A stretch of DNA of 64,000 nt from Olivibacter domesticus. Its GTDB lineage: Bacteria; Bacteroidota; Bacteroidia; Sphingobacteriales; Sphingobacteriaceae. This document shows positions 43,574-60,924 of the stretch, in pieces. The notes beneath the pieces are model-generated. The model made no database searches. It was not told the DNA's origin and was given only the letters and a program-made list of their open reading frames with translations. The stretch lies in the NCBI RefSeq assembly GCF_900109575.1, contig NZ_FOAF01000001.1, positions 2,203,662-2,267,661 on the forward strand. Reading direction: 5' to 3'. Position numbers and translations under genes: made by a program. Position 1 is the stretch's first letter, and the number at the start of each line of letters is the position of its first letter.

Positions 43574-44821
43574 CTAAAATTTAAGTGTCTTATAATAGAG
43601 TTTACTCAATTCAATCAACATGGCTGGCAAAATTTCTTTGTGGACCATTTTTGCGTATGAATAATAAACGGTGCTATTTGGATTAAACTCTTTCGCATAA
43701 AGTAAGTGATAAACAGGCTGATGGTGATGATGTTGCTCCGTGCTTTTCTGTATCACAATACTAGTAAACCATAATTTATCTTCAGTAGTTTCAATGGTAT
43801 AAGTGAGCCCGTGCGTACTGATATCCTGCTGATCCAATTCTTGAACCAGGTATCTTTTCAACAAGAGAGCCTCTTCATCAAGTACAGGTATATGCCAATT
43901 TAATTCCAAACTGGAGTGCCTCATATTGATTCCCATTTGGCCCATTAATTTTTCCCAAGATAATTGATCAGCAGCATTAATCCCTTTAACAACAAATGAT
44001 TTCCACGGACTGATATAGATATAAGCAGGACCTGTTTGCATACATAACTGGCAAGCTTTCCGTAAAAAAGCAATATCAAATTCATTATTCCGCCAATATA
44101 ACCCCAACCAGAGTAAGCTTTCATCCACGTTATTTAATCCTTCATAGTACGGAAAAAGGCTATTGGGTAATCTCAACTCGACTTTAGAGACAATACTATC
44201 TATCTTTAAGTATTCAGCCAAACCAACAATTAGGTCAGCTAGCAATGATTTAGGACTTTTTACCAACCTATTTTCTACATATCGGCTAAGTTTGGATAAG
44301 TCAGCACTACGAATAAGCGTAGGCCATTTTTCTAATCTATTTCGATTATGCTCATTACGGATATATAGGTACCAATAATCAGCACGTTCGGCCGCAATAT
44401 AATTCAGATGCCCCGTAAATAAAGGCACCATTGATTGCTTCGGGTCGGTAATATTGATCTTTAACCTTGGCGTAAAATCAAAGCTCTTCAGAATTGAAAG
44501 ATACTTATCTAAATTAAGCCAGCTCGTATTGGCCGTAATATCTAAAGCGATAGCACTGCTCACGATGTTCTGATAGGCATCTCTTTTACCGTATTCAAAA
44601 TCAACATGATGAGTTGTTAGGTACTTTTCTATTCGCGGCAGTATACTGGGCTCAACCGGAAATAAAATATCCTCTCTTGATCCAAAATGAACAAAATAAT
44701 TACCGGCCATTTCCGAGGCCTCTAAAACCGTCATGAAAATCTGGGGCGTGATCATGCCCCCCTTTACAAACACTCGAACCAATTGATTACGATCATAGGT
44801 TACTGAAAGGTCTCCTGTCAT
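43574..44821 (-). CDS. Nitrite/sulfite-reductase-like protein lacking siroheme/Fe-S cysteines
   Basis: This 415-residue protein aligns throughout with the product of 59479-60924. Shared segments include PRLKINI, a VPLFTGHLNYI/IPFFTGNLNFI pair, YISPWKSFVVKGI/YTTPWKSLLIKNI, RHSSLELNW/RHASNELNW and EFNPNS/NFNPNS. The PWKSLxxxG-type segment and the PRLKI segment recall the ferredoxin-like halves and heme-domain start of nitrite/sulfite reductases and CobG. The C-x5-C and C-x3-C ligands seen in NirB of this locus are missing, and there is no rubredoxin tail. It lies 26 bp after the porin gene at the end of the nirB-side cluster. Function unknown; electron transfer or a regulatory pseudoenzyme role in nitrate use is possible. 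Confidence 0.7.
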   Translation of the reverse strand: MTGDLSVTYDRNQLVRVFVKGGMITPQIFMTVLEASEMAGNYFVHFGSREDILFPVEPSILPRIEKYLTTHHVDFEYGKRDAYQNIVSSAIALDITANTSWLNLDKYLSILKSFDFTPRLKINITDPKQSMVPLFTGHLNYIAAERADYWYLYIRNEHNRNRLEKWPTLIRSADLSKLSRYVENRLVKSPKSLLADLIVGLAEYLKIDSIVSKVELRLPNSLFPYYEGLNNVDESLLWLGLYWRNNEFDIAFLRKACQLCMQTGPAYIYISPWKSFVVKGINAADQLSWEKLMGQMGINMRHSSLELNWHIPVLDEEALLLKRYLVQELDQQDISTHGLTYTIETTEDKLWFTSIVIQKSTEQHHHHQPVYHLLYAKEFNPNSTVYYSYAKMVHKEILPAMLIELSKLYYKTLKF

Positions 44822-44846
44822 GGTATTTTAATTTCTCAACAGCATG

Positions 44847-46103
44847 CTAGTGTTGAAATATCATCGGTTTAATCGTTAACATAAGCCAGGCCCATGAAGA
44901 TTGTCCATTTTTTTGATCTACCTGCTTCAGCACAGCCATGCTTGACGTATAAAATAAATGTGAATACCCCCCTTTAACATTAACAGATTCGGCTAAGTCA
45001 TAAGAAAAAGTTAAATCTAATTCTGTTCCTAAATACTTATTTTTATTATTGTTAGCAGCATCAACAATTCCCGCAGTAGCTGCAAAACGGTGCCCATCCA
45101 ATGATAAGATCCAATCATTCTTTGACCAGCTTGTTCTCAAAAATACATCATTTAGCCCTTTATTTCCATGACCATTTCCAACATAAAAATAATCCATATA
45201 TCCATAAAATTTATGATGGGTACCATACAAAGGATCAAAAGCTTCATTGTTACTAGTGGTAGCTTTATCACCGCTTAAATAGTCGGCTCCAAGTTCAAAT
45301 TTAAAATGTGTACGCTTCAAAGCTACACTCAATGAAGCCATATAGGCGCGCTTGTTAGCCCCCGTACTATTCTTGCCCATTTGATAATAATATTCAGCAG
45401 AAAATATAAGGGACGATAACGATGCCTGACTGTAAAACCCACCCGTTTGCATATAATACGATGTATCAGGTGCATATTGTCTGCTTTCGTTTAAAATAAG
45501 CATAGAGGCATAGATCTTCTTAAAATCTTTATGAAACCAAGCAAATTGAAAAGACTTATAATTATTTAAGCCTCGGTAATACGTTTCTGCAAGCTTAGTT
45601 GGTTCAGGGCTGTTACTATCCTGATTAAATGCAGCACCGAGATGCAGTCTACTCGTTTTACCATTATATTCATATTTTAACAAATCATGGCTCCTACCTT
45701 GCTGTGCCCAATCCAAATTACCTAAAATACGCGCATTATCATAATCAAGTTCCATTCTCCCTACCAAGAACCGCTGTTCAGGATTAAATTTATAAGCGGC
45801 CCAAGCTTGCTGAAAACTGGTTAATGCTTTATCTGTTTTACCTGCCTGGTCCGTATTGCCCCATATACGGACATCCTGAGGAACAAGCATAAGATCTATT
45901 TTTTCACTATGGAATTCAACATATAATCTAGATCGCTGTTCGATAAAAAACGCGGGGTTGGCATTTTCAGGCAAAGGACTTTTAAATCCATTTCGCCATT
46001 CAGCCCTCGGCCTTATTTCAGCTGTCAATTTAAATTGTGCAAGCGCATCTGGGACAAAAATTATCACTGTAAATAAAAGCGTAAATACTAGCTTCATAAC
46101 CAT
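44847..46103 (-). CDS. Alginate-export-type outer-membrane porin
   Basis: After a signal peptide (to about residue 22) the 418-residue protein has amphipathic beta-strand pattern throughout. It carries features of the alginate_exp family: LTAEIRPRAEWRNGF at the start, QRSRLYVEF, VPQDVRIWGNTDQAGK near residue 75 and FLVGRMELDYDNARILGNLDW near 117. Placed in a nitrate locus and behind its own TACGTA-type motif, it probably forms a channel for nitrate or nitrite across the outer membrane. No motif proves the solute. Confidence 0.82.
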   Translation of the reverse strand: MVMKLVFTLLFTVIIFVPDALAQFKLTAEIRPRAEWRNGFKSPLPENANPAFFIEQRSRLYVEFHSEKIDLMLVPQDVRIWGNTDQAGKTDKALTSFQQAWAAYKFNPEQRFLVGRMELDYDNARILGNLDWAQQGRSHDLLKYEYNGKTSRLHLGAAFNQDSNSPEPTKLAETYYRGLNNYKSFQFAWFHKDFKKIYASMLILNESRQYAPDTSYYMQTGGFYSQASLSSLIFSAEYYYQMGKNSTGANKRAYMASLSVALKRTHFKFELGADYLSGDKATTSNNEAFDPLYGTHHKFYGYMDYFYVGNGHGNKGLNDVFLRTSWSKNDWILSLDGHRFAATAGIVDAANNNKNKYLGTELDLTFSYDLAESVNVKGGYSHLFYTSSMAVLKQVDQKNGQSSWAWLMLTIKPMIFQH

Positions 46104-46111
46104 TATATTTT

Positions 46112-46159
46112 TTAAGTAAAAAAACGTAAAAAATACAACAATAACAAGTAAATTTACTT
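46112..46159. promoter_or_regulatory. Nitrate-locus motif upstream of the porin gene
   Basis: TTAAGTAAAAAAACGTAAA (46112-46130) is the reverse orientation of the element TTTACGTATTTTTACTTAA found before 52723. The palindrome AAGTAAATTTACTT follows at 46146-46159 and recurs, extended, at 54365-54382. Confidence 0.5.
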
Positions 46160-46164
46160 AAAAA

Positions 46165-46839
46165 CTATACTAAATTTTCTTTTACTGCTTTATTAACCAT
46201 GTCTACTGCATTGTTCACACCTAATTTCTTCATTATGTTAAATCGGTGTGTCTCTATCGTACGTATACTTTTGCCAAGTAGATCAGCAATATCTTTATTG
46301 TGTTTGCTATTTATAACCATACTCAATATTTGCTTCTCCCTTTTGGAAAGTCCGTAGGCTTCTGAGGAGACATTTTCGGTATTGTTAATGCTATTCCTTT
46401 TTTGCTGGGTTCCGCCACCTAACAGCTGATTTGCTAAAATATTAGAGACAGCCCCACTATAATACCTTACACCATTATTAATCTGCTTTAAAGCCTTTAT
46501 AAATTCGACCCTATCCGTGTCTTTTAATAAATAACCCCAAGCACCTACCCTTAATGACTGCAAAACATAATCCTCTGTATCGTGCATGGATAACATGACT
46601 ACCTTAGTGTTTTCGAGCTTGCCTGCTAGGGCTTCACAGGCCTCTAAGCCATTCATTTCGGGCATTCGAATATCCATAATGGCTAAATCAGGCTGCAATT
46701 CTCGTGCGCGTTCTACAGCCTGTAAGCCGTTATCTGCCTCTCCAACCACTATGATTTCTTCATCCGCCTCTAGCATCGCCTTGATACCATTACGCACCAA
46801 CACATGATCATCCGCTAAAAGCACCGTAATTTTACTCAT
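46165..46839 (-). CDS. NarL/FixJ-family response regulator
   Basis: Start 46839 (MSKITVLLADDHVLVRNG) is chosen because it follows the kinase stop by one base, while 46875 would overlap it. The receiver domain has the acidic pair Asp10/Asp11 and phosphoacceptor Asp56 in LAIMDIRMPEMNG. A LuxR-type helix-turn-helix (about 160-220) carries LSKREKQILSMVINSKHNKD and the segment GKSIRTIETHRFNIMKKLGV. Paired with the NarX-like kinase encoded immediately upstream, it should activate nitrate or nitrite genes of this locus. The motifs at 46112, 52616, 52691 and 54365-54475 are candidate targets. Confidence 0.9.
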   Translation of the reverse strand: MSKITVLLADDHVLVRNGIKAMLEADEEIIVVGEADNGLQAVERARELQPDLAIMDIRMPEMNGLEACEALAGKLENTKVVMLSMHDTEDYVLQSLRVGAWGYLLKDTDRVEFIKALKQINNGVRYYSGAVSNILANQLLGGGTQQKRNSINNTENVSSEAYGLSKREKQILSMVINSKHNKDIADLLGKSIRTIETHRFNIMKKLGVNNAVDMVNKAVKENLV

Positions 46840-46840
46840 A

Positions 46841-48685
46841 TTAAGTATTTCCTGGTTTATTAACCAAAGGTACAAAAAGCTTTACAATTGTGCCTACACC
46901 AAGATTAGATTCGATTTTTAATTTCCCATTAATATACGTAGCTCTTTCTTGCATATTCAAAAAGCCATGACCAAATTCTACATGAAATATATCAACCGAT
47001 TTACTTTCAAAGCCAACACCATAATCCCTAATAGTGAGTACGAGTTCATTTTGATCATGTTCCATGATTACTTCAACCTTTGGAGACTCGGCATACTTTA
47101 TGGCGTTATTCAAGGCCTCCTGCACAATTCTATAAATGTTATTTTCTATTTTAGGAGACAAGCGTTTACTAAAATCCGTCCTGTTCTCGAAAATCAGCTG
47201 ATTATTGCTCAGTTTATCAATTTCAAGCACCAAGTTTTTTAAACCCGCAGCTAGCCCATAATCACTTAATACAGGAGGTTTTAGGTTAAAAGTCACTACT
47301 CTTACCTCCTTGATAATATCCTTTGTCAGCTTGTTAATATCTATTAATTTCTGCTCAGCCTCTTTTTCTTTTGTAAGATCGATAGATGCCATGTGAAATT
47401 TCAGCGAGGTGAGTTGCTGTCCTATTCCATCATGTATGTTCATCGCAATCCTTTTCCTTTCTTCTTCCTGTCCCTCTAGTACTAATATTGATCGGAATTT
47501 TTGTTCATTTACCTTTCTTTCAATTTCCGCCCTATCTTTTTTATACATATTCTGTTCAGCTAACCTTCTCGGGGTCATATCTGCTCCAAAAACATGCAGC
47601 TCGTCCACTTCATTATCATGACCATAGATAGGCACAATACTCACATCCATATAATGCTTGTTCTTCGAACGATCATTATAGATAAGCTCTTTATGCCAAT
47701 TTTGTTGATTTGCTACCGTATCAATCAGCTGTTCATTAAAATCATCAGCAGGCTCACCGGCTAAACCAAAAAGGTGCGCAATACTTTTAAATGCGACATC
47801 ATTTCCTAAAAATTTATGGATATATTGGTCGGTAACATAATAAACATTACCTCCGCGATCAGCTTTTGCAATCAACCTTGGTAAGGCCACCGGTAACGTA
47901 ATGCCAGATATACGTTCATACGATTCTTCTAAAGAGGCATATAACGCGCCAATCTCCTTACTCATCTGCTGTGCATCACTTTCTGACCTGATAAGTTTAA
48001 GCAAGGTATCATTAACTTTCCTTGTAGTTGGTATGAAAATGAGAAATATTTCGAGGACAATAATACTCAACGATACCGCCAATAAGATATATTCTGTACG
48101 TTTTAATTGCAGGATCTTCTGTGAAGCTATGTATTCAAATGCAGATACAATGGCATCCATATGCTGCAAGAACAATCCTTCATGCTGTAGAATTGTTTGC
48201 ACATTGGCCGCTAGCAAAGGATAAACTACATCCGCCTTGTTTTCTATTTTCCTACACAGCTGGGTACTTGCTAGAAATATGCTATCGAAGGTTGGTTGAT
48301 TGTCTGTAAACAATTGATTGACAAAAGCATTTTTATTAATAGGCAATGCTAAACTATCATTACCATACCGTAAACTACGGTTATTTCTATCCCACTCTTT
48401 ATTTGCTGTTTTTAATTCATCAAGTAAATGTAGACGTCCTTCTTGAGAGTTGATCTCATTCAGTCTGAGTGCTAATTTGCTGATCTGCTGACTGAGCATT
48501 CGCTGCCTGCCAGCTAAGTTCACAATACGCGCATCACTCTCCTGTTCACGTAAATGTTTCTGCACTAAAAATTGCCCAAGAACAATGCTTAACGCAATTG
48601 TACTCAGTGCTAACAGGTAATAAATCCTTAGTTTACTAAATTGGTCTTTCTTATATTCTATTCGCACGGTTTGTTCGGCATTCAT
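46841..48685 (-). CDS. NarX-like sensor histidine kinase with PAS domain
   Basis: Membrane helices at about 22-42 and 199-219 enclose a four-helix periplasmic sensor whose first helix carries NLAGRQRMLSQQIS (56-69). This is the PilJ/NarX-type helix that resembles the nitrate-binding P-box of NarX. A PAS domain (about 265-375), a HisKA_3 region with His418 in MNIHDGIGQQ and an HATPase with IVQEALNNAIKYA complete the NarX-class layout. The cognate regulator gene follows directly. It very likely senses nitrate or nitrite, given the operon with nirBD and the nitrite channel, although the P-box arginine arrangement is only similar. Confidence 0.88.
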   Translation of the reverse strand: MNAEQTVRIEYKKDQFSKLRIYYLLALSTIALSIVLGQFLVQKHLREQESDARIVNLAGRQRMLSQQISKLALRLNEINSQEGRLHLLDELKTANKEWDRNNRSLRYGNDSLALPINKNAFVNQLFTDNQPTFDSIFLASTQLCRKIENKADVVYPLLAANVQTILQHEGLFLQHMDAIVSAFEYIASQKILQLKRTEYILLAVSLSIIVLEIFLIFIPTTRKVNDTLLKLIRSESDAQQMSKEIGALYASLEESYERISGITLPVALPRLIAKADRGGNVYYVTDQYIHKFLGNDVAFKSIAHLFGLAGEPADDFNEQLIDTVANQQNWHKELIYNDRSKNKHYMDVSIVPIYGHDNEVDELHVFGADMTPRRLAEQNMYKKDRAEIERKVNEQKFRSILVLEGQEEERKRIAMNIHDGIGQQLTSLKFHMASIDLTKEKEAEQKLIDINKLTKDIIKEVRVVTFNLKPPVLSDYGLAAGLKNLVLEIDKLSNNQLIFENRTDFSKRLSPKIENNIYRIVQEALNNAIKYAESPKVEVIMEHDQNELVLTIRDYGVGFESKSVDIFHVEFGHGFLNMQERATYINGKLKIESNLGVGTIVKLFVPLVNKPGNT

Positions 48686-48754
48686 TTGCTTACCCTCAAA
48701 GCTACTAAATATTCACCATCCGCAATATATCAAATGCCTGATATGTCAAATAGA

Positions 48755-49624
48755 TTAAACCTCTTCTACCACTCCTAATTTTACCTGTTCACGTAGGACT
48801 GTTTTTCTAATAGGGTTGTTTATTCTTGTTTCAGTCCGTTTATTTCTACCAAAAGTATAATACAATGCCCATGCAGTGAACACAACTCCTCCAAGCAGAT
48901 TACCAAATGTTACCGGAAGTTGGTTAAACAACCACCAATCAGCAACCGAAACATCCGCTCCTAAAATAATTCCTGCCGGAATAACAAACATATTTACAAC
49001 AGCATGTTCAAAGCCCTGGCCAAAAAATATAAAGATCGGTAGCCAGGCAGCTAAAATTTTCCCAGTTGATGAATTAGAACTCATTCCCAACACAACACCT
49101 GTTGTGACCATCCAGTTACACAAAACTCCTTTTGTAAAGGCACTGAACATACCATCTAAACCATACTGTGCATATCCAACGGTTTTTGCTTCCGCTATTT
49201 TTACAATCAGTTGTGCTACAGCATTTTTTTCTTCGTGCCCAAACTGCGAAACAGAAACACAAAAAAGACAAGCATAAAGAAGGCCTCCGAGCAGATTACC
49301 TACAAATACCAAGGAGAGATTTTTCAGCATGGCCCAAAAGCCGATTTTCTTATCAAAATAGGCCATAGGCAATACAGCAAAACTACCCGTAACCAATTCA
49401 AGTCCCATGAGCACTACAATAATAAAACATGCCGGAAAAAGTGCCGCACCAACAATCGCCAAGCCTGTTTGGGCAGTAGCCGTCAATGCCAAAGTAGTAC
49501 CAAAGCCTAATATAGCGCCAGAAAGTAGACCTCTAACCAATAAATCGCCGGCAGATAAATTTATTTTATCGACACCGGCCTGTATCATGGAGGCAGCAAC
49601 GACAGTGGGTTTGTTATAATCCAT
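48755..49624 (-). CDS. Formate/nitrite-channel (FNT) family transporter
   Basis: Six transmembrane helices in 289 residues with the FNT start KPTVVAASMIQAGVDKINLS are seen. Also present are the pore segments GAILGFGTTLALTATAQTG, LSLVFVGNLLGGLLYACLF and GVLCNWMVTTGVVLGMS, and the helix GFEHAVVNMFVIPAGI, which includes the central conserved His. FNT channels move nitrite, formate or hydrosulfide. Its position 32 bp after nirD marks it as a nitrite channel (NirC-like) for uptake or overflow export. Confidence 0.92.
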   Translation of the reverse strand: MDYNKPTVVAASMIQAGVDKINLSAGDLLVRGLLSGAILGFGTTLALTATAQTGLAIVGAALFPACFIIVVLMGLELVTGSFAVLPMAYFDKKIGFWAMLKNLSLVFVGNLLGGLLYACLFCVSVSQFGHEEKNAVAQLIVKIAEAKTVGYAQYGLDGMFSAFTKGVLCNWMVTTGVVLGMSSNSSTGKILAAWLPIFIFFGQGFEHAVVNMFVIPAGIILGADVSVADWWLFNQLPVTFGNLLGGVVFTAWALYYTFGRNKRTETRINNPIRKTVLREQVKLGVVEEV

Positions 49625-49656
49625 CCTATAAATTTTAACAGCTTACATAATAATTA

Positions 49657-50076
49657 TTAAAAAATTGCACTTCCCTGTAAAACATCTCCGGTCATTTTCG
49701 CCAATCCAACATAAACTTCTCCATTTTCTTCTCTAACAGGGAAGGTAACAATAGCACATTCATCACCGTTTAAACATTCGCCCGTTTTCAGAGAAAATGT
49801 CTTTTTATGAAAAGGGCAAGCAATTTTAGGTTCCCCGCCTTGGGAGCCGATCATACCTCGGGCTAAAATCATCTGCATTTTATGCGGACAAAGATTTTGG
49901 CAAGCATACCATTCCTTACGGCTACTGAAATTAAAAACAGCAATCTGTAAAACGTCATGTTTAAAGCATAATCCGCCATTATCAGGAAAGTCCGACACGT
50001 TACCTACATTTAACCAAAAGTCAACGTCCTGACCATTCACAGGCACAAAACTTGAATAATCAATTGTTTCCATCAT
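49657..50076 (-). CDS. nirD: Nitrite reductase small subunit
   Basis: This 139-residue Rieske-fold protein keeps both iron-sulfur ligand pairs, CPH in NLCPHKMQMI and CPFH in ACPFHKKTF, which in many NirD proteins are lost. It is encoded 26 bp after nirB and partners it in NADH-dependent nitrite reduction to ammonium in the cytoplasm. The length is normal. GECLNGDECAIVTFPVREENGEVYVG closes the fold (first 20 residues typical). Confidence 0.93.
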   Translation of the reverse strand: MMETIDYSSFVPVNGQDVDFWLNVGNVSDFPDNGGLCFKHDVLQIAVFNFSSRKEWYACQNLCPHKMQMILARGMIGSQGGEPKIACPFHKKTFSLKTGECLNGDECAIVTFPVREENGEVYVGLAKMTGDVLQGSAIF

Positions 50077-50102
50077 TCATTTATTTTCTAATCTTAATTG
50101 AA

Positions 50103-52607
50103 CTAAACAACACTTCCCCACTCAACCGGCATCTTCTGTCCGCGAACTTCTTGGAATTTCATGTTTGGATCCCCTTCCTCACTATTTGCAAAGTGACTGA
50201 AACGTTTACGGAAAGATTCATTCTCTACAGCGTGCTTCCATTCACATTCATAATTTGCAATCAATGTTTCCATTTCAGCTTCAAGCTGATTACCTATTCC
50301 AAGTACATCATTCACTACCACATCATACAGATAAGTCAAACCGCCTTCCATTTTATTTAACCAGGTAGCAGTGCGTGTAAGCGGTTCTGCCGTCTTGATA
50401 TAAAACATCAAAAAACGATCAAGATAACGTATGCAAGATTCCTTATCTACATCACCCACTAATAAGAGTGCATGTTGTGGTCTTGCCCCACCGTTTCCAC
50501 ATACATACAAGTTCCATCCCTTTTCGGTCGCTATAATCCCAAAATCTTTTGATTGAGCTTCTGCGCATTCGCGTATACAACCAGAAACAGCGCCCTTTAA
50601 TTTATGAGGAGATCTCAACCCCTTATACCTATTTTCAATCTCTATGGCAAATCCAACAGAATCCTGCACACCAAACCTACACCAGGTAGAACCTACGCAA
50701 CTTTTAATGGTCCGTAATGACTTACCATAAGCATGTCCACTTTCAAAGCCAGCCGCAACCAATTCCTCCCATATAGCAGGCAATTCATGTAACTGCGCAC
50801 CAAAAAGATCAATTCGTTGCCCGCCTGTAATTTTTGTATAGAGTTGGTATTTTTTAGCTACCTGTGCAATAACCAATAACTTATCAGGTGTAATTTCTCC
50901 TGCTGGAATGCGCGGAACAACAGAATAGGAACCGCCCTTTTGTATATTCGCCAAAAAGCGATCATTTGTATCCTGAATAGTGCTTTGTTTTAAGATTACT
51001 TCGTTCCAAATACTAGCCAATAAAGAAGCCACAGCAGGCTTACAGGTTTCACAACCATCCCCCTCACCGTATCTTCCTAACAGTTCATCGTAACTTTTTA
51101 TATCGTTCACACGGATGAGGTCGTACAATTCTTGTCGGCTATAAGCGAAATGCTCACATAAGGTCTTCTTAATTTGCTTACCTTGAGATTCAAGCACAGA
51201 TTTTAATAGATCAGCCACCATAGGCGTACATCCGCCACAACCTGTACAAGCCTTCGTCACTTTCTTCACTCCTGCCAAGTCCGTTAACTCATTCGCCTCG
51301 ATAGCTTCACAGATACCACCCTTTGTAATTCCTTCACATGAACAGATCTGCGCGGTATCGGGCAAAGCTTCTACCCCTTGCCCACTAGCCGACTGGTTAG
51401 CGCCTCTTGCACCTAATATGAGATCAGCAGGGTCCTCTGGCAGGCTTAGTCCATTTTGAGTAATCTGCAATAACATATTGTAGGCATCTGCCTCTCCCAC
51501 CAAGATGCCCCCCTTCAGGTACTTCCCATCACGCGTAATATTAATTCTTTTATAAACGCCCTTTGCCTTATTTTCATAAACAATGGGCACACATTCTTCT
51601 TCCACATCCAATGCATCACCAAAGCTTGCCACGTCGACACCTATTAATTTTAGTTTAGTCGACATATCAAAACCGGTAAAAGAGGCCTGGTTATCACCGC
51701 TAAGCACTGTCGCCACTACTTCAGCCATATCATAACCAGGAGCAACCAACCCATAAATCATTTCTTGGTGCAAGGCTACTTCGCCAATGGCGAAAATATC
51801 TGGGTAATTCGTCTGCAACTTATTATTTACTTCAATCCCCCCCCTGCTACCGATACTTATACCACTGTTTTTAGCTAACTCATCCCGTGGTCTGATACCG
51901 GCCGAAACTACTAACATATCGCAATCAAGCACAGAACCATCTGCAAAGGATAAGCCATTGATTTTACCTTCACCAAGTACTTCTTTCGTACTTTTGGAAG
52001 TATGAATATGTAAGCCTAAGGCTGTCAACTTATCCTTTAAAATGAGCGCACCTTTAACATCCAGCTGACGGGGCATTAAACGATCTGCAAACTCAACCAC
52101 ATGCGTCTCGAGTTTCATATCCAACAATGCTTTCGCCGCTTCCAAACCCAGTAAACCTCCCCCAATGACAACCGCTTTTTTGGCTGTTCTGCCATAATCT
52201 TCCATCTGCTGAAGATCCTCAATTGTTCTGTAGGCAAATACACCCATTTTATCAATCCCATGAAGAGGTGGCATAAAGGGTGATGAACCGGTTGCCAATA
52301 TAAGTTTATCATACGTATCAATCGTTCCCCTATGCGTACTTATTGTTTTCTTTGATGGATCGATATTGGTTACTAGCTCACCTGTTATTAAATTAATGCG
52401 ATTCGCTGCATACCACTCCTTTGGAGCCATAAGCAGATCATCCGCTGTTTTACCGGCAAAGTATTCACTTAAATGAACCCTGTCGTATGCTGGTCTGTGC
52501 TCTTCACCATACACAGTAATCTCACAGTGTTGAGCATTTTCTTTTTTACGTATTTTTTCGCAAAACTTATATCCAACCATGCCATTTCCAACAACAATAA
52601 TTTTCAT
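50103..52607 (-). CDS. nirB: NADH-dependent nitrite reductase large subunit
   Basis: The 834-residue chain has an FAD/NAD(P) part (1-400; VVGNGMVGYKFCEKI, ATGSSPFMPPLHG, VIGGGLLGLEAAKALLD). A BFD-like [2Fe-2S] domain (about 415-475; CSCEGITKGGICEAI and CTGCGGC) follows, then the nitrite/sulfite reductase domains. The siroheme/[4Fe-4S] cysteines are intact in SCVGSTWCRFG and SGCIRECAEA (about 637-680). It reduces nitrite to ammonium with NADH. It is the first gene of the minus-strand unit; its 115-bp upstream region is shared with the divergent SUMT-like gene and contains two copies of the locus motif. Confidence 0.96.
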   Translation of the reverse strand: MKIIVVGNGMVGYKFCEKIRKKENAQHCEITVYGEEHRPAYDRVHLSEYFAGKTADDLLMAPKEWYAANRINLITGELVTNIDPSKKTISTHRGTIDTYDKLILATGSSPFMPPLHGIDKMGVFAYRTIEDLQQMEDYGRTAKKAVVIGGGLLGLEAAKALLDMKLETHVVEFADRLMPRQLDVKGALILKDKLTALGLHIHTSKSTKEVLGEGKINGLSFADGSVLDCDMLVVSAGIRPRDELAKNSGISIGSRGGIEVNNKLQTNYPDIFAIGEVALHQEMIYGLVAPGYDMAEVVATVLSGDNQASFTGFDMSTKLKLIGVDVASFGDALDVEEECVPIVYENKAKGVYKRINITRDGKYLKGGILVGEADAYNMLLQITQNGLSLPEDPADLILGARGANQSASGQGVEALPDTAQICSCEGITKGGICEAIEANELTDLAGVKKVTKACTGCGGCTPMVADLLKSVLESQGKQIKKTLCEHFAYSRQELYDLIRVNDIKSYDELLGRYGEGDGCETCKPAVASLLASIWNEVILKQSTIQDTNDRFLANIQKGGSYSVVPRIPAGEITPDKLLVIAQVAKKYQLYTKITGGQRIDLFGAQLHELPAIWEELVAAGFESGHAYGKSLRTIKSCVGSTWCRFGVQDSVGFAIEIENRYKGLRSPHKLKGAVSGCIRECAEAQSKDFGIIATEKGWNLYVCGNGGARPQHALLLVGDVDKESCIRYLDRFLMFYIKTAEPLTRTATWLNKMEGGLTYLYDVVVNDVLGIGNQLEAEMETLIANYECEWKHAVENESFRKRFSHFANSEEGDPNMKFQEVRGQKMPVEWGSVV

Positions 52608-52712: not shown

Positions 52713-52722
52713 TTTAGAAGAA

Positions 52723-53439
52723 ATGGATTTTGTACTTATAAAAAATGCAGAAAACGCAGATTTTCTTACGATAAAAGCTGTCAGACATATCAAAGAAGCC
52801 AACTTATTAATTACTGAGTTTTTCATTTCAGAAAAACTATCTAAGTATTTACATGCGAACTGTAGCATTTTAAACCAACACGAATACCGGCATTATTTTA
52901 TAGGCACAAACCGAAGAAGTGCAAAAAAAATAGTTTATTTAATGGGCGATAGTAGCATTAACAGAACAGAAGAAACAAAGACAACAGATTATTTCAAACA
53001 TCTCGGATACAGGGTAACTGTTTTACCAGGTATCAGCGAAATTAATCGTATAACAGGACAGAACCATTTTCCTTTAACTATTCGTCATCGCAATGAAAGC
53101 TTCTGGGTCTATGATGGAAAAACAAATAATAGTATATCGGAGACGGAAAAATTCAAACAGATAGCAGCCACCGCTGCCACCATAGTTATCAAGAACCCCT
53201 TTAAACAAACGCACGCCCTCATATCGCTTATCTATCAATACAGAAATCCAGACACTCCTGTACTACTAAGCACAAAGCAGCATGACGTTATAAATTGCAC
53301 ACTAAAAGATTTACTTAAAAAGAAAGCAGACATAGAGAGGTATCTGATGATTGTCATCAATCCAAGTTCGAAGGATTCTCCTTCAATAGAGCTTTCCTAT
53401 CAATCCTCCCCATTAAACGCAAGCTTAGCAACCGGATAA
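52723..53439 (+). CDS. Divergent uroporphyrinogen-III methyltransferase-like protein (degenerate SUMT)
   Basis: The 238 residues align end to end with the CobA encoded next door: FLTIKAVRHIKEANLLI against LLSMAGLEALESADAVL, VTVLPGISEIN against TAVIPGMSSSL, and ESFWVYDG against ADFWVITG. The SAM-binding loop GAGPGDPE of CobA reads IKNAENAD here, and the GGDPYVFGRG motif is lost. The frame is intact and preceded by a purine-rich AGAAGAA, so it is probably expressed, but methyltransferase activity is unlikely. It is divergent from nirB and abuts cobA tail to tail with no spacer. Function unknown; siroheme or precorrin binding is a guess. Confidence 0.72.
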   Translation: MDFVLIKNAENADFLTIKAVRHIKEANLLITEFFISEKLSKYLHANCSILNQHEYRHYFIGTNRRSAKKIVYLMGDSSINRTEETKTTDYFKHLGYRVTVLPGISEINRITGQNHFPLTIRHRNESFWVYDGKTNNSISETEKFKQIAATAATIVIKNPFKQTHALISLIYQYRNPDTPVLLSTKQHDVINCTLKDLLKKKADIERYLMIVINPSSKDSPSIELSYQSSPLNASLATG

Positions 53440-54168
53440 TTACATAGTTGGAAACCCCACCACCTGACCAATGATGATAATTGCAGGTGCACCTATACCT
53501 TGGTTGATTATCTTTGGCTCAATATCATCGATTGTACCAATCGCGACGCGCTGATCAGGCAGGGAACCATTCTGTACAATGGCCACTGGAAGCAACTGTT
53601 TCTGCTCATGCCGATAAAGAGCTGTGATAGTACTTATATGTTGCATGCCCATCAAAATCACCACTGTAACATCTAATTTAACTGCCGTTAATAAATCTTC
53701 TGACAAATTTCCATTTTTTGTTGAGCCAGTTATCACCCAAAAGTCAGCAGAAACTCCCTCATGAATAAGCGGAATACCTATCAGATCTGCCAAAGCTAAG
53801 GAGCTCGACATCCCCGGTATTACTGCCGTTGCTATATTTCTTGCCTGCGCATATTGCAACTCTTCATTCCCTCGCCCAAAAACATACGGGTCTCCTCCTT
53901 TTAAACGCACCACATGCCCGTATTTAAGTGCGCAATCTACTAACATCTGATTAATTTCTTCTTGTTTATAAGCATGATCTCCCAATCGCTTACCAACATA
54001 AATCAACTCACATTTTTCCGCGGCATATTCCAAAATAAGTGGATTCACCAAGGCATCATACAGAACAGCATCAGCACTTTCCAATGCCTCCAGGCCAGCC
54101 ATGCTTAATAACTCAGGGTCTCCAGGACCTGCCCCAACAAGGGTTATTTGAGGTAATTTAGTTTCCAT
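53440..54168 (-). CDS. cobA: Uroporphyrinogen-III C-methyltransferase
   Basis: This 242-residue SUMT shows the complete family motifs: LVGAGPGDPELLSMAGLEAL at the N-terminus, VRLKGGDPYVFGRGNEEL near residue 86, VIPGMSSSLA near 118 and ILMGMQHI near 177. It methylates uroporphyrinogen III twice to give precorrin-2, the first step to siroheme, the cofactor of NirB. There is no fused dehydrogenase/ferrochelatase domain of the CysG type, so those steps must be encoded elsewhere. It is convergent with the SUMT-like gene and divergent from narK. Confidence 0.95.
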   Translation of the reverse strand: METKLPQITLVGAGPGDPELLSMAGLEALESADAVLYDALVNPLILEYAAEKCELIYVGKRLGDHAYKQEEINQMLVDCALKYGHVVRLKGGDPYVFGRGNEELQYAQARNIATAVIPGMSSSLALADLIGIPLIHEGVSADFWVITGSTKNGNLSEDLLTAVKLDVTVVILMGMQHISTITALYRHEQKQLLPVAIVQNGSLPDQRVAIGTIDDIEPKIINQGIGAPAIIIIGQVVGFPTM

Positions 54169-54364
54169 TTAATTAATTTATCATCGCTTTCGATGTGCCA
54201 CAATACAGACAGAGAATCTCAAACGGGGTATTACATGCCATTATTCAATGTTAATCTATATCGTGATGCACACAACAGACTAAACACAAATTCCAAATAT
54301 TGACATCCCGTTTCACTTGCTTAACTATGAATTGTACACGTTATTTTTTTCGTATAAATAATAA

Positions 54365-54475
54365 ATAAGTAAATTTACTTATATTTATATACAAAAATAC
54401 GTAAATATTTTGCTTAAATACGAATTTTTATTATAAATTTGCCCCAATACAAATATTTTATACGTATAAAAACGT
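54365..54475 (+). promoter_or_regulatory. narK promoter region with palindrome and TACGTA motifs
   Basis: A canonical promoter is present: TTTG at 54409-54412, 21-bp spacer, TAAATTTG at 54434-54441. Upstream are the 18-bp palindrome ATAAGTAAATTTACTTAT (54365-54382), whose arms TACTTAT fit the NarL heptamer TACYYMT, and TACGTA at 54398-54403. TACGTATAAAAACGTA follows at about 54461-54476, past the start site. The 457-bp spacer 54169-54625 holds no gene; the leader of narK is about 175 nt and has no obvious structure. Confidence 0.6.
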
Positions 54476-54625
54476 AAAAATACATAAAAATAACTGTTTT
54501 TGACTTAACAAGGATGTATAAACAAACGGTCACTCGAATATACCTTCGCACATCTCATCACAATAGGCGATGTAAAGCAATTTAATAAATTATCTTTTTC
54601 CGCATTTTAAAATGTTCAACCTTCA

Positions 54626-55939
54626 ATGGCAAAATTTATGAAAGCAACCTCTCAGCAACCGCTCCCTTCACTGCCCCTGTTTTCAATCAAAGGTGTACAG
54701 ATGCGAACGTTCCACATTACCTGGTTTATGTTCTTCATTTGTTTTTTCGGCTGGTTTGGCCTGGCACCCTTAATGCCTACTATTCGGACAGAAATGGGCC
54801 TCACGAAAGAACAGATTGGCAATATTATTATCGCTTCTGTATCGTCTACCATCATCGCTCGCCTTATTATAGGAAGGTTATGCGATCTTTTTGGCCCTCG
54901 TAAAACTGCCGTATGGCTTTTAATTATTGGCTCTATTCCGGTCTTTCTGGTTGGGTTAGCACATAATTACGAAACTTTTCTCCTGTTTAGGCTTGCTATC
55001 GGGGTAATAGGTGCTTCTTTTGTCATTACGCAGTACCATACAAGTATGATGTTCGCACCCAATATAAAAGGTACAGCAAATGCCATTACCGGAGGCTGGG
55101 GTAATTTGGGTGGTGGTATTACCAACATGGTTATGCCGCTTATTTTCGCTTGTATAGTAGGCTTTGGTTATACGGCAGAAATAGCTTGGCGTTATGCTAT
55201 GATAGTCCCCGGTGTATTTATGCTCTTGATAGCTTTCCTTTATTGGAAATATACAAAAGATACACCAGCCGGTAATTTTAATGAAATAGAAAGGCTAAAA
55301 ACAGCCAAAAAGAAATTCAGCTGGAAGGTTCTGGGCGATTGGCGCATCTGGGCATTAACCTTTGCTTATGCCATGTGTTTTGGCATGGAAATAACATTTG
55401 ATAATGTGGCAGCGCTCCATTTTGTAGATAGCTTTGATTTAAGCCAGAGCAGCGCTGGGTTTTGGGCAGGCATCTTTGGGTTCATGAATCTTTTTGCCCG
55501 CGCCTTGGGCGGTATTATGGCAGACAAAACGGGTCGAAGCTATGGCTTAAAGGGTAAAGGATTACTGCTTGCATCCATGTTGTTATTAGAAGGTATCGGT
55601 GTATTACTCTTTGCACAAGCCGGTTCTCTTATGCTCGCTATTATTTCGATGTTAGGCTTTGCTTTATTTCTAAAGATGGCAAATGGCGTAACCTATGCTA
55701 TTGTTCCATTTATTAACAAAGAACATGTCGGACTTATCAGCGGAATCGTGGGTGCTGGAGGCAATCTAGGGGGCATGCTCTTCGGCTTCTTATTTAAATC
55801 AACAGCCATTAGCTATGCAACGGCATTTCAATACATTGCATTTATCATTTTAGCTGTCGCTTTTGTGGTACTGCTTACGCCATTTAAGAAAACCAGGAAA
55901 AAAACTGTTGCCGAAAAAGAGCTAGCCATACAAGCATAA
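54626..55939 (+). CDS. narK: Nitrate/nitrite MFS transporter
   Basis: The 437-residue protein has about twelve helices and both glycine-rich nitrate signatures of the NNP family: GGWGNLGGGITNMVMPLIF (about 153-171) and GIVGAGGNLGGMLFGFLF (about 373-390). The conserved arginine in helix 2 is represented by ARLIIGRLCDLFGPR. It imports nitrate, or exchanges nitrate and nitrite. The start could be ATG 54626 or 54638. It heads the plus-strand unit with the nitrate reductase gene 13 bp downstream. Confidence 0.94.
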   Translation: MAKFMKATSQQPLPSLPLFSIKGVQMRTFHITWFMFFICFFGWFGLAPLMPTIRTEMGLTKEQIGNIIIASVSSTIIARLIIGRLCDLFGPRKTAVWLLIIGSIPVFLVGLAHNYETFLLFRLAIGVIGASFVITQYHTSMMFAPNIKGTANAITGGWGNLGGGITNMVMPLIFACIVGFGYTAEIAWRYAMIVPGVFMLLIAFLYWKYTKDTPAGNFNEIERLKTAKKKFSWKVLGDWRIWALTFAYAMCFGMEITFDNVAALHFVDSFDLSQSSAGFWAGIFGFMNLFARALGGIMADKTGRSYGLKGKGLLLASMLLLEGIGVLLFAQAGSLMLAIISMLGFALFLKMANGVTYAIVPFINKEHVGLISGIVGAGGNLGGMLFGFLFKSTAISYATAFQYIAFIILAVAFVVLLTPFKKTRKKTVAEKELAIQA

Positions 55940-55952
55940 GCCACTAAATACC

Positions 55953-58900
55953 ATGAAAGAAAGCAATGATAAATCGACTACTCAACTAAAAAGCACTTGT
56001 TGTTATTGTGGTGTTGGTTGTGGTGTTATTATTGAGAAACAGTTTAACGGTTTAATCAATATTAAAGGAGATGAAAGTCATCCTTCCAATAGAGGGCTTC
56101 TATGCAGTAAGGGCATGAACTTACATCATACCGTAAACGATCAAAGTGATCGTTTGCTTTTCCCCCAAATGCGTTACGGAAAACACCTACCCTTGTTGCG
56201 GGTCGATTGGAATACGGCGCTCGAGCGGGCGGCAGCAGTGTTCAGCACTTTTATAGAAAAATATGGACCGGACAGCGTTGCTTTTTATGCTTCAGGGCAA
56301 TGCCTTACAGAAGAATATTATGTATTAAACAAGCTAGTTAAAGGATTTATTGGCACCAACAATATCGATACCAACTCCCGCTTGTGTATGAGTAGCGCCG
56401 TAGCAGCCTATAAAATGGCGCTTGGTGAAGACACGGTGCCCGTTTGTTACGATGACATCGAGCTTTCTGATTGTATTTTTGTCGCAGGTGCCAATCCCGC
56501 CTGGTGCCACCCCATCATTTGGCGGAGGGTGGAACAACACAAAGCGGCAAATCCGTCTGTAAAAATTATCGTGATAGACCCTCGTGTAACAGACAGTTGT
56601 GCCATAGCAGACTTACATCTACAGTTAAACCCAGGCACTGATATCACCCTTTTTCATGCTATAGCCAAGATATTGATAGAAAATGGCCAAATAGATGCCT
56701 CCTTTATACAATTACACGCTACGGGTTTTGACGCTTTTAAAAGGATGCTCGCACAACAATCCGTCCATGAAGCGGCGCTAATCTGCGGATTGAGCGAATC
56801 GCAGATCCAGCTCGCAGCAAACTATATTGCACAATCAAACGGCTTTTTGAGCATGTGGACGATGGGATTGAATCAGAGCGCTGTAGGAGTTAACAAAAAC
56901 CTAAGTCTTTTAAACTTACACTTAATCACCGGTAAGATTGGCAAACCGGGTTCAGGACCACTTTCGCTTACCGGACAACCAAATGCAATGGGAGGCCGTG
57001 AAGTTGGAGGTCTTGCCAACCTGCTTCCTGCACATCGCGATTTAGGCAATTCGGCACACAGACAGGAAGTACAAGTTTTTTGGGGAGGTAAGGAGATCGG
57101 GAGTAAGCCGGGCTTAACGGCTACCGAAATGTTTGATGCATTAGCCGACGGACGGCTGAAGGCTATCTGGATTGCTTGTACAAATCCATTGATAAGTCTA
57201 CCGGATGTTCGCAAGGCAGAAGAAGCACTGAAAAAAGCAAAATTTGTAGTCGTACAGGAAATAAGCAACAAAGCGGAAACATTACCTTATGCAGATGTCG
57301 TCCTCCCTGCTGCTGCCTGGAGTGAAAAAGAAGGTACTATGACGAATTCCGAAAGACGCATCAGCTACCTGCCAAAGGGGAATATAGCTCCCGGAGAAGC
57401 TTTAGCAGACCAAGAAATCTTCTGTAGATTTGCCAAAAAAATGCATTTCAAGGGCTTCGATTTCCCAAATACTGAAGCCATTTACCTGGAGCATGCGCAA
57501 CTTACCAAGGGTACCAATATTGATATAAGTCAGCTAAATTACCGTCTTATTCAAGAGAGCAGAAGCATACAATGGCCTTATAAAAACCAACAATCTACGC
57601 CACGTCTGTTTACAGATCATGCCTTCCATACGCCTGATAAAAAGGCACGCATTCATACCGTTACAGCTAATTTTAACAGTGAACAACCAGACGATCAATA
57701 TCCCTATATCCTCACTACCGGACGTATTCGAGATCAATGGCATACCCGCAGCAAAACAAGCAAGGTAAACAAACTAAACCAACATATTCCAAGGGCTTAC
57801 CTGACCGTTCATCCAATAGATGCCAAGCCCTTAGGTTTAAGAGAAGATGACATCGTTATCGTACGTTCTCGCCGGGGAGAAGTTACTGTGCCTTGTAAAA
57901 TCGATAGGGCTATTAAGCCAGGTGTTGTATTCCTACCGATGCATTGGGGCAAAATTTCAGGAAGCGACTTAAACAGGGTCAACAATCTTACGAACAAATT
58001 ATTAGATCCCATTTCGAAAGAACCTGATTTTAAATTTTGCGCCGTCCAAATAGAGAAGTTTAAAAAACCCAAACAACGTATCGTAATAATTGGCGCAGGT
58101 GCCGGAGCATATGGTTTTGTTAAAACGTACCGTGAGAAAAACCAGGATGATGAAATCATTATTTTCAGTAAGGAAAATTTTCCTTTTTATAATAGGGTAA
58201 TGCTACCCGATTATATATGTGGCGAACAAAGCTGGGAACAGCTTATAAAAATGCCCGAAGAGGAAGAAAAGGATTTTAATATCACTTTACATAAAGGACT
58301 GGCGGTTACGTTAATTGACCGCAAAGCGAAAAAAGTAACGGATAACCGCGGCCTAAAAACAAGTTATGATATTTTAGTTATGGCTACCGGAAGTAGGCCA
58401 ACACTTCCGAAAGGCGTACCCTTGCTTGAAGGCATCTTTACGATGCGGAGTCGTACAGATGCTGATCAATTTAAAAGCTATACGCCAATAGACGGCCACG
58501 TAGTGATTGTTGGAGGAGGTTTGCTAGGCCTGGAGATGGCAGCCTCCTTACGAACTATGGGTACGCGCATCACTATTATTCAACGGGTATCCCGCTTTCT
58601 CAACAGACAGCTCGATACGTTAGGCAGCCAGTTATTACATGAAGAGATGACCGAGCAGGGCTGCGATATTTACTATGATGAAGAAATACAGCTTTATTAC
58701 GGCAGTAAATACCTCACTGGAATAGGGCTTAAGAATGGAAAGAAAATCGAGTGCAATGCACTGATATTTGCTATCGGAACGACCCCTAATATTGAATTAG
58801 CCAAAGATTGCAACCTAGTTTACAAACGCGGGATAACTGTGAACGACCATATGCAAACAGATGATCCTGCTATTTTTGCAATAGGTGAAATTGCTGAACA

Positions 58901-59468
58901 TCAAGATATCCTTTATGGTATTACCGCAGCAGCCGAACAGCAAGCGACTGTAGTAGCGAATTATTTAAATGGAGATATCGCTAGCAGATACCAGGGAAGT
59001 ACATTTATGAATATCATCAAAATACATGGATTTGACCTATGTAGCATCGGTTTACCTGCAGCTCCAAGTGGGCAGGCAGGCTACGAGGAAATAACGTTTA
59101 CCGACAAAGCCAAACGTTATTATAAGAAATGTGTCATCTACCAGGACCGTTTGGTTGGAACTATTTTGGTGGGCGACAAATCCGAATTTTTGGAATATAA
59201 AGAACTCATTGAAAAAAAACTGGAATTAGGTGAAAAAAGACTAAAACTTCTTCGAAGCGGACAAAGCGCTGAACCGGTAATAGGCAAATTGGTATGCAGC
59301 TGTAGTAACGTAGGTGCTGGAAATTTACTTCAAAAAATAAAAGAAGGACACGACGATCTAACAGCGCTCTGTTCCGCAACCGGAGCGGGCTCCGGTTGCG
59401 GCTCCTGTAAATCGGAGATCAAGCGCATCTTATTGGAGAACATAGATCAATCTATCGTTTCAGCTTAA
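55953..59468 (+). CDS. nasA: Fused assimilatory nitrate reductase: molybdopterin, FAD/NAD(P) and BFD domains
   Basis: The N-terminal two thirds are a bis-MGD nitrate reductase with [4Fe-4S] cysteines 16, 19, 23 and 51 (CCYCGVGCG ... LLCSKG), a probable Mo-ligand Cys in NSRLCMSSAVAAY and the C-terminal molydopterin-dinucleotide domain (about 555-700). From about 709 (RIVIIGAGAGAYGF) runs an FAD/NAD(P)-dependent reductase like the front of NirB, with VIVGGGLLGLEMAASL. It ends in a BFD-like [2Fe-2S] domain (LVCSCSNVGAGNLL, GSGCGSCKSEIKRIL, about 1115-1165). At 1171 residues it joins in one chain what NasA and NasB (NasC) do as separate subunits in other bacteria. It should reduce nitrate with NAD(P)H in the cytoplasm. 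The rubredoxin-type gene follows after 10 bp. Confidence 0.93.
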   Translation: MKESNDKSTTQLKSTCCYCGVGCGVIIEKQFNGLINIKGDESHPSNRGLLCSKGMNLHHTVNDQSDRLLFPQMRYGKHLPLLRVDWNTALERAAAVFSTFIEKYGPDSVAFYASGQCLTEEYYVLNKLVKGFIGTNNIDTNSRLCMSSAVAAYKMALGEDTVPVCYDDIELSDCIFVAGANPAWCHPIIWRRVEQHKAANPSVKIIVIDPRVTDSCAIADLHLQLNPGTDITLFHAIAKILIENGQIDASFIQLHATGFDAFKRMLAQQSVHEAALICGLSESQIQLAANYIAQSNGFLSMWTMGLNQSAVGVNKNLSLLNLHLITGKIGKPGSGPLSLTGQPNAMGGREVGGLANLLPAHRDLGNSAHRQEVQVFWGGKEIGSKPGLTATEMFDALADGRLKAIWIACTNPLISLPDVRKAEEALKKAKFVVVQEISNKAETLPYADVVLPAAAWSEKEGTMTNSERRISYLPKGNIAPGEALADQEIFCRFAKKMHFKGFDFPNTEAIYLEHAQLTKGTNIDISQLNYRLIQESRSIQWPYKNQQSTPRLFTDHAFHTPDKKARIHTVTANFNSEQPDDQYPYILTTGRIRDQWHTRSKTSKVNKLNQHIPRAYLTVHPIDAKPLGLREDDIVIVRSRRGEVTVPCKIDRAIKPGVVFLPMHWGKISGSDLNRVNNLTNKLLDPISKEPDFKFCAVQIEKFKKPKQRIVIIGAGAGAYGFVKTYREKNQDDEIIIFSKENFPFYNRVMLPDYICGEQSWEQLIKMPEEEEKDFNITLHKGLAVTLIDRKAKKVTDNRGLKTSYDILVMATGSRPTLPKGVPLLEGIFTMRSRTDADQFKSYTPIDGHVVIVGGGLLGLEMAASLRTMGTRITIIQRVSRFLNRQLDTLGSQLLHEEMTEQGCDIYYDEEIQLYYGSKYLTGIGLKNGKKIECNALIFAIGTTPNIELAKDCNLVYKRGITVNDHMQTDDPAIFAIGEIAEHQDILYGITAAAEQQATVVANYLNGDIASRYQGSTFMNIIKIHGFDLCSIGLPAAPSGQAGYEEITFTDKAKRYYKKCVIYQDRLVGTILVGDKSEFLEYKELIEKKLELGEKRLKLLRSGQSAEPVIGKLVCSCSNVGAGNLLQKIKEGHDDLTALCSATGAGSGCGSCKSEIKRILLENIDQSIVSA

Positions 59469-59478
59469 TCAAATAGAG

Positions 59479-60924
59479 ATGAAAAATAAGCAGCACCACA
59501 TAGTAAAAATCAACTTACCTGGAGGTATCATTTCTGCCGGTAATCTACTCCAAGTGCTTAAACTTGCGCATGCATTGGAAATAACAGAACTAAGTTTTGG
59601 ACATCGCCAACACCTGTTACTGGAGGCATCCGACGCTCAAATACGTCAGCTTCAACTCCATATTGGCAACAATACAATGGAAGTGAATGCAGACGATTAC
59701 CCCAATATCATGAGCTCCTATGTAACCGACGAGGTATTCGCGCCTTATAGTTGGTTAAGTGAGGGCGTATACAAAGACATTATCTACTCATTCAATTATG
59801 CCCCTCGTTTAAAAATTAATATAGTAGACCGGGAACAAAATCTTATACCTTTTTTTACCGGTAATCTGAATTTTATTTCATCTGATATCAATAATCATTG
59901 GTACTTATATGTCAGGTTTCCAAAAACGAATCGGATGTTCCACTGGCCATCGCTCATTTATTCAGGCGACATAGCAGAATTCAGCCGATCAATAGAATTT
60001 ATCATCTTATCCGAACACCACTTATTCTATAATAAATCGGATGCCGACGGACATCTGCTGGTAGAGAAATTAACACGCAAAGCCAATTTTAATACCCAGC
60101 CTTTTTTGCAGCAGCTGCTACATACGGATTTTCAGTTACCCTTTTACGAAGGGATCAACACCTATAGTGAACAAAAACTCTGGTTAGGCATTTATCGAAG
60201 GAAAGAAAGCTTCCCCATTGAGTTTTTAATAGCGCTCTGCTCTCTCTGTATAGAGCGTCGTATAGGTCAGTTGTACACCACCCCTTGGAAATCGCTTCTG
60301 ATAAAGAACATCCTTCCGGCAGATCGTATCCACTGGAGTACGCTGCTCAATAAATACCGCATGAATGTACGCCACGCTTCCAACGAATTAAACTGGCAAT
60401 TAGAAGATCGTTGCGAGGAGGCTTTAGACTTGAAATGGAAATTGGTAAAAGCATTTGAAGAAGCCGATTTACGAACATCAAAACTTTGTTTTGCCATTAA
60501 AACGACTAAACAAACTGGCCTTTTTGGATCCATTGTCATTCAAAAAGAAAAAACAACAGATGGAGTAACCTTATACCAGGTAATGCACACCCATAATTTC
60601 AACCCCAATTCAAAGCAATTTATTCATTATGGAAGCGCCACCGATATACAAGACCTTAGTAGCCTTCTCATTCATCTATGTCATTTTTATTATGATATGC
60701 ACAGCGATCTTCCGGAAAAAGAGGACCAAAATGAAAAAGAAGTTAGGGAAAATGAAAATAATTCTGTCGAAATATATGCATGTAAATACTGTCTTACACA
60801 ATATAATCCCTTATATGGAGACCCTCAGCAGGCGATTCCGGAAGGTACTTCTTTTCAATTATTGAAAGAATATCATTGTCCGACATGCGACGCCACCCTA
60901 GCAGATTTTAGACCTGTCATGTAA
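59479..60924 (+). CDS. Nitrite/sulfite-reductase-like protein with C-terminal rubredoxin domain
   Basis: The first 400 residues are homologous to the product of 43574-44821. They start with a ferredoxin-like half (LPGGIISAGNLLQVLKLAHA, then TELSFGHRQHLLLEA) like that of sulfite reductase, then PRLKINIVDREQNLIPFFTG, then a second half with YTTPWKSLLIKN. No C-x5-C/C-x3-C siroheme ligands are present. A complete rubredoxin follows an acidic linker: Cys435, Cys438, Cys467, Cys470, with YGDPQQAIPEGTSF between. It probably transfers electrons in nitrate or nitrite reduction; the SiR-like part may bind a partner or heme precursor. It is the third gene of the narK unit, and a convergent Crp/Fnr gene ends 5 bp away. 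Confidence 0.8.
   Translation: MKNKQHHIVKINLPGGIISAGNLLQVLKLAHALEITELSFGHRQHLLLEASDAQIRQLQLHIGNNTMEVNADDYPNIMSSYVTDEVFAPYSWLSEGVYKDIIYSFNYAPRLKINIVDREQNLIPFFTGNLNFISSDINNHWYLYVRFPKTNRMFHWPSLIYSGDIAEFSRSIEFIILSEHHLFYNKSDADGHLLVEKLTRKANFNTQPFLQQLLHTDFQLPFYEGINTYSEQKLWLGIYRRKESFPIEFLIALCSLCIERRIGQLYTTPWKSLLIKNILPADRIHWSTLLNKYRMNVRHASNELNWQLEDRCEEALDLKWKLVKAFEEADLRTSKLCFAIKTTKQTGLFGSIVIQKEKTTDGVTLYQVMHTHNFNPNSKQFIHYGSATDIQDLSSLLIHLCHFYYDMHSDLPEKEDQNEKEVRENENNSVEIYACKYCLTQYNPLYGDPQQAIPEGTSFQLLKEYHCPTCDATLADFRPVM

Follow-up and report, generated by a model that had tools for sequence, protein, structure and literature searches.

The nitrate locus of Olivibacter domesticus, within the 64,000-nt stretch of DNA studied here (the window, whose positions serve as coordinates throughout), encodes two proteins with the fold of sulfite reductase (SiR) that lack the ligands of its [4Fe-4S]-siroheme center. 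P0001 (SRrub) ends in a rubredoxin and begins 10 bp downstream of the nitrate reductase NasA, and P0002 (SR2) is a rubredoxin-free paralogue; an earlier note on this DNA, which had described two such proteins as bracketing the nitrate locus, was correct. P0001 represents a widespread Bacteroidota family that is present wherever, in the genomes sampled, a fused NasA and the nitrite reductase NirB occur together, and it probably links the two enzymes. Our favored but tentative reading, which we rate slightly below an even chance, is that P0001 may serve the assimilatory nitrate reductase of Bacteroidota as an accessory subunit for electron transfer, in which a siroheme-free SiR scaffold would dock a rubredoxin and couple NasA to NirBD.

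Results

A sulfite reductase fold without its siroheme site

Structure prediction followed by structure comparison found the SiR fold for the whole P0001 body and for residues 8-301 of P0002, the outcome that the earlier note had expected of a predicted structure. Structure comparison was required because sequence searches of the PDB gave no SiR: P0001 matched rubredoxins, and P0002 had no credible match. The body consists of two repeats and resembles NirA and CysI in this; for NirB Pfam reports a single repeat, so that the body is not simply the lost half of NirB. The rubredoxin, said in the note to be complete, occupies residues 433-477 and has both CxxC pairs and the rubredoxin fold. A four-cysteine rubredoxin is present in 113 of 117 distinct family members, a set recounted from 131 frames (some representing one gene twice) with P0001 and P0002 added, in which one member truncated at a contig end (L091) was scored as lacking the domain.

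Compared with CysI/SiRHP and NirA, the family has no [4Fe-4S]-siroheme ligands, its ligand loops are gaps, its substrate residues are mostly replaced, and a rubredoxin has been added. A family profile of 35 members was aligned with five NirA-like proteins and the two-repeat SiR (697 aa) of the window genome; the alignment spans the entire body (E 4.2e-5, probability 70), with the gaps at both ligand loops. C-x5-C and C-x3-C motifs occur together before the rubredoxin in none of the 117 distinct members, and 13 have a C-x5-C at some other place. Of the four basic substrate residues of SiRHP, which we take to be Arg83, Arg153, Lys215 and Lys217, the Arg83 position alone is kept, as R43 in 35/35 members; by the alignment and the 35-member counts the other three are replaced by P/Q75, L111 and I113, with the caveat that a strand shift by one residue would retain a lysine, K112 (32/35).

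The former active-site stretches rank with the best-conserved parts of the body, with a mean of 3.36 bits over 74 positions versus 2.34 over the other 323, and the loop of the second cysteine pair is barely above average (2.70 versus 2.53); the comparison is descriptive, two of the seven loops having been chosen partly with the alignment in view. Such conservation suggests that the emptied siroheme site seems to be reused rather than decaying. Invariant or nearly invariant in the body are R43, N76, W92, K112, N114, E224, W235, R298, H299, E303 and N305, together with a CxxC pair, C254/C257. The possibility that this pair forms a new metal site was rejected, C254 being kept in 34/35 and C257 in 33/35 members.

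The family falls outside the related groups that were compared. Against the CobG profile TIGR02435, scores were 16 and 10.4 bits with a cut-off of 234.8; similarity to this precorrin-3B synthase is weak and lies in the second half of the protein, and cluster ligands are absent. At E up to 1, no Rieske match as in NirD or NasG was listed, nor any match to the FAD/NAD module or the curated profile of NirB, and a search of PHROGs gave no match.

Co-occurrence with fused NasA and NirB

One sample of 395 Bacteroidota genomes was searched for the SRrub family, fused NasA and NirB. Family presence was set at a match of at least 350 bits, the next match being 48 bits, and a raw tally of 127/395 genomes was set aside as consisting mostly of stand-alone rubredoxins. 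Full-length family members were found in 29 genomes, NirB in 28 and fused NasA in 33. All 28 genomes with both fused NasA and NirB have the family, none of the five with fused NasA and no NirB has it, and without fused NasA it occurs in 1 of 362. The five (G066, G105, G207, G231, G271) each have a NirA-like gene with four cluster cysteines near the fused NasA (L192, L191, L193, L194 and L195, respectively). The single exception, G178, yielded neither NasA nor NirB at the thresholds applied, and its truncated copy stops before the rubredoxin at a contig edge; this rubredoxin-less member (L196, 63-1556) is apparently decaying. In L191 there are also separate genes, named by eye, for CysJ-like flavodoxin and reductase pieces, with starts that resemble that of NirA; similar starts were seen by eye in L192, L193 and L195, and none in L194.

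In a second set of 60 relatives, NirB is found in 18, and 14 of these have the family, in 14/14 cases beside NasA. The other four (G003, G020, G029, G035) lack the family and have no fused NasA, G003 having an unfused 744-aa relative, and all four carry a nirB-nirD-FNT set (FNT, formate/nitrite transporter). Among the remaining relatives NasA was searched for in G002 and G004 only, with none found, and a family copy in two pieces (G023) and a NirB in two frames (G007) were counted as present. Allowing for shared ancestry, these distributions indicate that SRrub is kept where both NasA and NirB occur. The link between nitrate reductase and NirBD that the earlier note had put forward, with a profile search for the family and its co-occurrence with nasA/nirB among its checks, thus gains support. 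The role of siroheme sensor or chaperone that it had offered besides is disfavored, because siroheme is needed as well in genomes that have NirB but no fused NasA, and in those that combine NirA with fused NasA, and both kinds lack the protein.

A scan of species genomes gave at least 581 confirmed relatives of the rubredoxin form, and 80 loci, several of them cut by contig ends, were kept for context; by record titles 80/80 are Bacteroidota. Upstream on the same strand the FAD part of NasA was matched in 79/80, and other neighbors were the NasA catalytic part (76), NarK (72), NirB (53) and NirD (52). An association with NasA alone, with NirB in just 53 of the 80 loci, was dropped: genome searches place NirB elsewhere, and it is present in 10/10 locus genomes tried. 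A common order is nrtABC or nirBD, narK, nasA (fused, ~1170 aa), SRrub, tauE, moaA, moaE, mobA, the nrt, tau, moa and mob names being assigned by eye. Among 15 NasA-holding stretches, one of which (G018) is also among the 80 loci, SRrub directly follows NasA in 13 and is separated from it by one gene in two. For one locus without NasA beside SRrub (L019), the genome has a fused NasA-like frame on a different contig. Two annotated plasmid records label SRrub 'rubredoxin' and NasA 'nitrate reductase'. The nas genes lie on 330 kb plasmids in Spirosoma and Hymenobacter (L219, L218), the former with nirB, nirD, cobA, porin, narK, nitrate reductase and 'rubredoxin', the latter running from nirD to cobA.

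The second copy, P0002

The pair proposed in the note, if taken as an obligate one, is not supported by copy number: of the 29 genomes with a full-length member in the 395-genome sample, 28 carry a single copy, and a second, rubredoxin-free copy was seen solely in the window genome and an Olivibacter relative, G001. The SR and NasA trees split into the same two clades, A and B. P0001 and the NasA of the window both belong to clade A; P0002 and its G001 counterpart lie within clade B, on a long stem branch (0.81), where they form a set of four together with G011 and G263 (support 99), and the nine other clade-B members of that tree keep the rubredoxin and adjoin NasA. The NirB of the window is not part of the 15-row clade-A NirB group (97) but is placed next to G263 (92, not starred), and its best match outside the genus pair among the 60 relatives is the NirB of G011 (70%). 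Gene order in G011 (L155) is nirB-nirD-HK-RR-narK-nasA-SRrub, where HK is the histidine kinase and RR the response regulator, and on the minus strand of the window it is nirB-nirD-FNT-HK-RR-porin-P0002. The nitrate locus (43574-60924) is thus hybrid-like, its nirBD side nearer the clade-B loci and its narK-nasA-rubredoxin side of clade A. In the simplest history, a clade-B operon would have lost narK-nasA and the rubredoxin, and a clade-A narK-nasA-SRrub set would have come to lie beside it.

In the two species P0002 has an open frame of the same length, 73% identity and a nonsynonymous divergence (pN) of 0.172. Corresponding values in the nirB operon are 0.193 for the histidine kinase, 0.192 for NirD, 0.201 for the porin and 0.101 for NirB; synonymous sites of P0002 are saturated, so that no dN/dS ratio is given. 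P0002 looks constrained. It is conserved like its operon neighbors, which suggests that the body probably still functions in the absence of a rubredoxin of its own, with NirB perhaps as its partner or possibly NasA in trans. The loss of the rubredoxin and of the neighboring NasA, and the long stem branch, would suit a functionless relic, and the pN exceeds that of NirB alone among those neighbors; but the intact, equally long frame and a pN within the range of HK, NirD and porin make it unlikely that P0002 (the question does not extend to P0001) is such a relic.

Other genes of the locus

Features of the nitrate locus are collected in Table 1. The NasA fusion also holds a Rubredoxin_C domain (Pfam, E 8.6e-19) and one BFD [2Fe-2S] domain. 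The two-component system with the PilJ-type sensor (46165-48685, minus strand) within the nirB operon has counterparts near nasA in G011 and G246. Adjoining the normal tetrapyrrole methylase is a degenerate tetrapyrrole-methylase-like protein (52723-53439, plus strand; PF00590, E 2e-7), which by best match among the 80 related loci is seen in the Olivibacter locus only and which, with 36% identity across two species and a pN of 0.43, evolves faster than its neighbors. Elsewhere in the window genome (L204, 1-1371), a siroheme-synthase N-terminal-like sequence is apparently fused to a TauE/SafE-like permease and adjoins a second tetrapyrrole methylase and the 697-aa sulfite reductase (all named by eye).

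Table 1. Genes of the O. domesticus nitrate locus, in window positions
Feature	Position	Strand	Description
P0001 (SRrub)	59479..60924	+	481 aa; siroheme-less SiR-fold protein, rubredoxin at the C-terminus
P0002 (SR2)	43574..44821	-	415 aa; SiR-fold paralogue lacking a rubredoxin; final gene in nirB operon
NasA	55953..59468	+	Mo nitrate reductase, 1171 aa, fused to NirB-like FAD/NAD module
NarK-family nitrate/nitrite transporter	54626..55939	+	TIGR00886 311.6 bits, just below cut-off 311.7
NirB nitrite reductase large subunit	50103..52607	-	Fe-S/siroheme ligands present; TIGR02374 above cut-off
NirD Rieske subunit	49657..50076	-	TIGR02378 above cut-off
Formate/nitrite transporter (FNT)	48755..49624	-	domain match
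Sensor histidine kinase, PilJ-type N-terminus	46841..48685	-	domain matches
LuxR-type response regulator	46165..46875	-	domain matches
Outer-membrane porin, Alginate_exp family	44847..46103	-	domain match
Tetrapyrrole methylase, taken as CobA-type (siroheme supply)	53440..54168	-	TP_methylase, E 1.5e-43; CobA name from context

Discussion

What could a siroheme-free SiR body tied to a rubredoxin do beside NasA? NasA is the FAD/NAD/BFD half of NirB fused to a Mo nitrate reductase, and in NirB that half serves the SiR domain and the Rieske protein NirD. P0001 mirrors both of these partners in altered form, as a SiR fold minus siroheme and a rubredoxin in place of the Rieske protein, and it is from this resemblance that we propose docking to the NasA module and electron delivery to NasA. 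The SiR-type body, its [4Fe-4S]-siroheme site lost, would be the docking scaffold and the tethered rubredoxin the carrier: electrons would pass from NADH to the FAD (and BFD [2Fe-2S]) module common to NasA and NirB, from there to the docked rubredoxin, and then to the [4Fe-4S]/Mo center of NasA. The SiR-like face might also contact NirB and so keep nitrate reduction in step with nitrite reduction, a contact that would explain both the need for the two enzymes and why P0002 stayed with its NirB. P0002 itself would descend from a second NasA-SRrub set, of clade B, from which NasA and the rubredoxin have disappeared.

Several points weigh against this proposal. NasA, with an FAD and [2Fe-2S] module of its own, could be self-sufficient, and NirD already supplies an Fe-S carrier. 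P0002 keeps the SiR-like part without a rubredoxin, and the rubredoxin may therefore not be the core function. SRrub is absent from the five genomes that combine fused NasA with NirA, and these belong to other families than the carriers, so that lineage and partner are confounded. Prediction and comparison establish the fold, the loss of ligands, the rubredoxin, the gene order, the co-occurrence with both enzymes, the clade membership and the constraint; the electron flow, the docking, the contact with NirB and its use, and the history of P0002 are inferred.

If the fold rather than the rubredoxin is central, P0001 could be a scaffold that keeps NasA and NirB in contact or protects nitrite passing between the two, with the rubredoxin as redox sensor or switch instead of main carrier. 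A distribution that requires both enzymes, strong constraint on the former siroheme-site loops, as for a ligand or partner site, and an apparently constrained, rubredoxin-free P0002 in the nirB operon are all consistent with this. We nevertheless consider it doubtful: no structural evidence points to a complex, and the near-universal four-cysteine rubredoxin is no less compatible with an electron carrier. A no less speculative form of bridging would be a redox clutch, in which a pseudoenzyme uses its emptied siroheme site for a partner or ligand and its rubredoxin to gate electrons, so that nitrate would be reduced only as fast as nitrite is removed.

A role in maturation, the vacant pocket binding siroheme or molybdenum cofactor for delivery to NirB or NasA, might be read from the siroheme-binding fold with its conserved loops, from moaA, moaE and mobA downstream in several loci and from the CobA-type gene within the locus. 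It is improbable, since the four NirB/NirD/FNT relatives without fused NasA lack SRrub although three of them have a CobA-type gene nearby, since the five genomes with fused NasA and NirA lack it too, and since the rubredoxin would have no obvious part. Least credible is an enzyme of changed activity, its pocket taking another redox center or substrate fed by the rubredoxin; the invariant or nearly invariant residues from R43 to N305 and the C254/C257 pair could be so interpreted, but the pair is missing in a few members, cluster ligands are absent, and the context points to no substrate besides nitrate and nitrite. Electron delivery to NasA, with coupling of NasA to NirBD, remains the reading that we favor.

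For one carrier serving both enzymes, the Paracoccus NasB-NasG-NasC system is, by analogy, the nearest precedent: the ferredoxin NasG is regarded as the carrier of electrons from NasB to NasC and NasB (PMC4724949), and in the account given there it is, like SRrub, a small iron protein tied genetically to both reductases and proposed as carrier to both. Unlike P0001, NasG and NirD are Rieske proteins without a SiR body, and at the window locus NirD coexists with the rubredoxin. The FAD module of the NasA fusion belongs to the same kind as Flp/NasC FAD reductases and NADH:rubredoxin reductases of the NorW type; unlike in those, it is fused to the Mo subunit, and the acceptor rubredoxin is on a separate protein.

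The earlier note had called this an undescribed component, which holds in part. A 'rubredoxin' in the nitrate operons of the Bacteroidota genus Aquirufa is already in print (PMC11861422, PMC10821818), and a table in PMC10821818 lists a strain without nitrate and nitrite reductase that also lacks the rubredoxin. The 'rubredoxin' of the plasmid records is the same gene in the same context as SRrub; for that of Aquirufa the context is the same by the description in PMC11861422, sequences not having been compared. The name covers merely the last ~50 residues, and the SiR-like body goes unmentioned in those portions of the two Aquirufa papers on which we draw (PMC11861422, PMC10821818). A search of open-licence PMC full-text literature found no description of the SiR-like body of this 'rubredoxin', and the note stands to that extent. 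The SiR fold and rubredoxin are themselves known; as far as the literature searched goes, their siroheme-less combination appears new.

If our reading is true, a component so far missing from Bacteroidota nitrate assimilation would be supplied by this conserved protein, which has at least 581 relatives and which two annotated records name only 'rubredoxin'. The coupling to NirBD of a nitrate reductase that has an NADH module of its own would become open to experiment, and the protein would exemplify the reuse of a siroheme-enzyme fold after loss of the cofactor.

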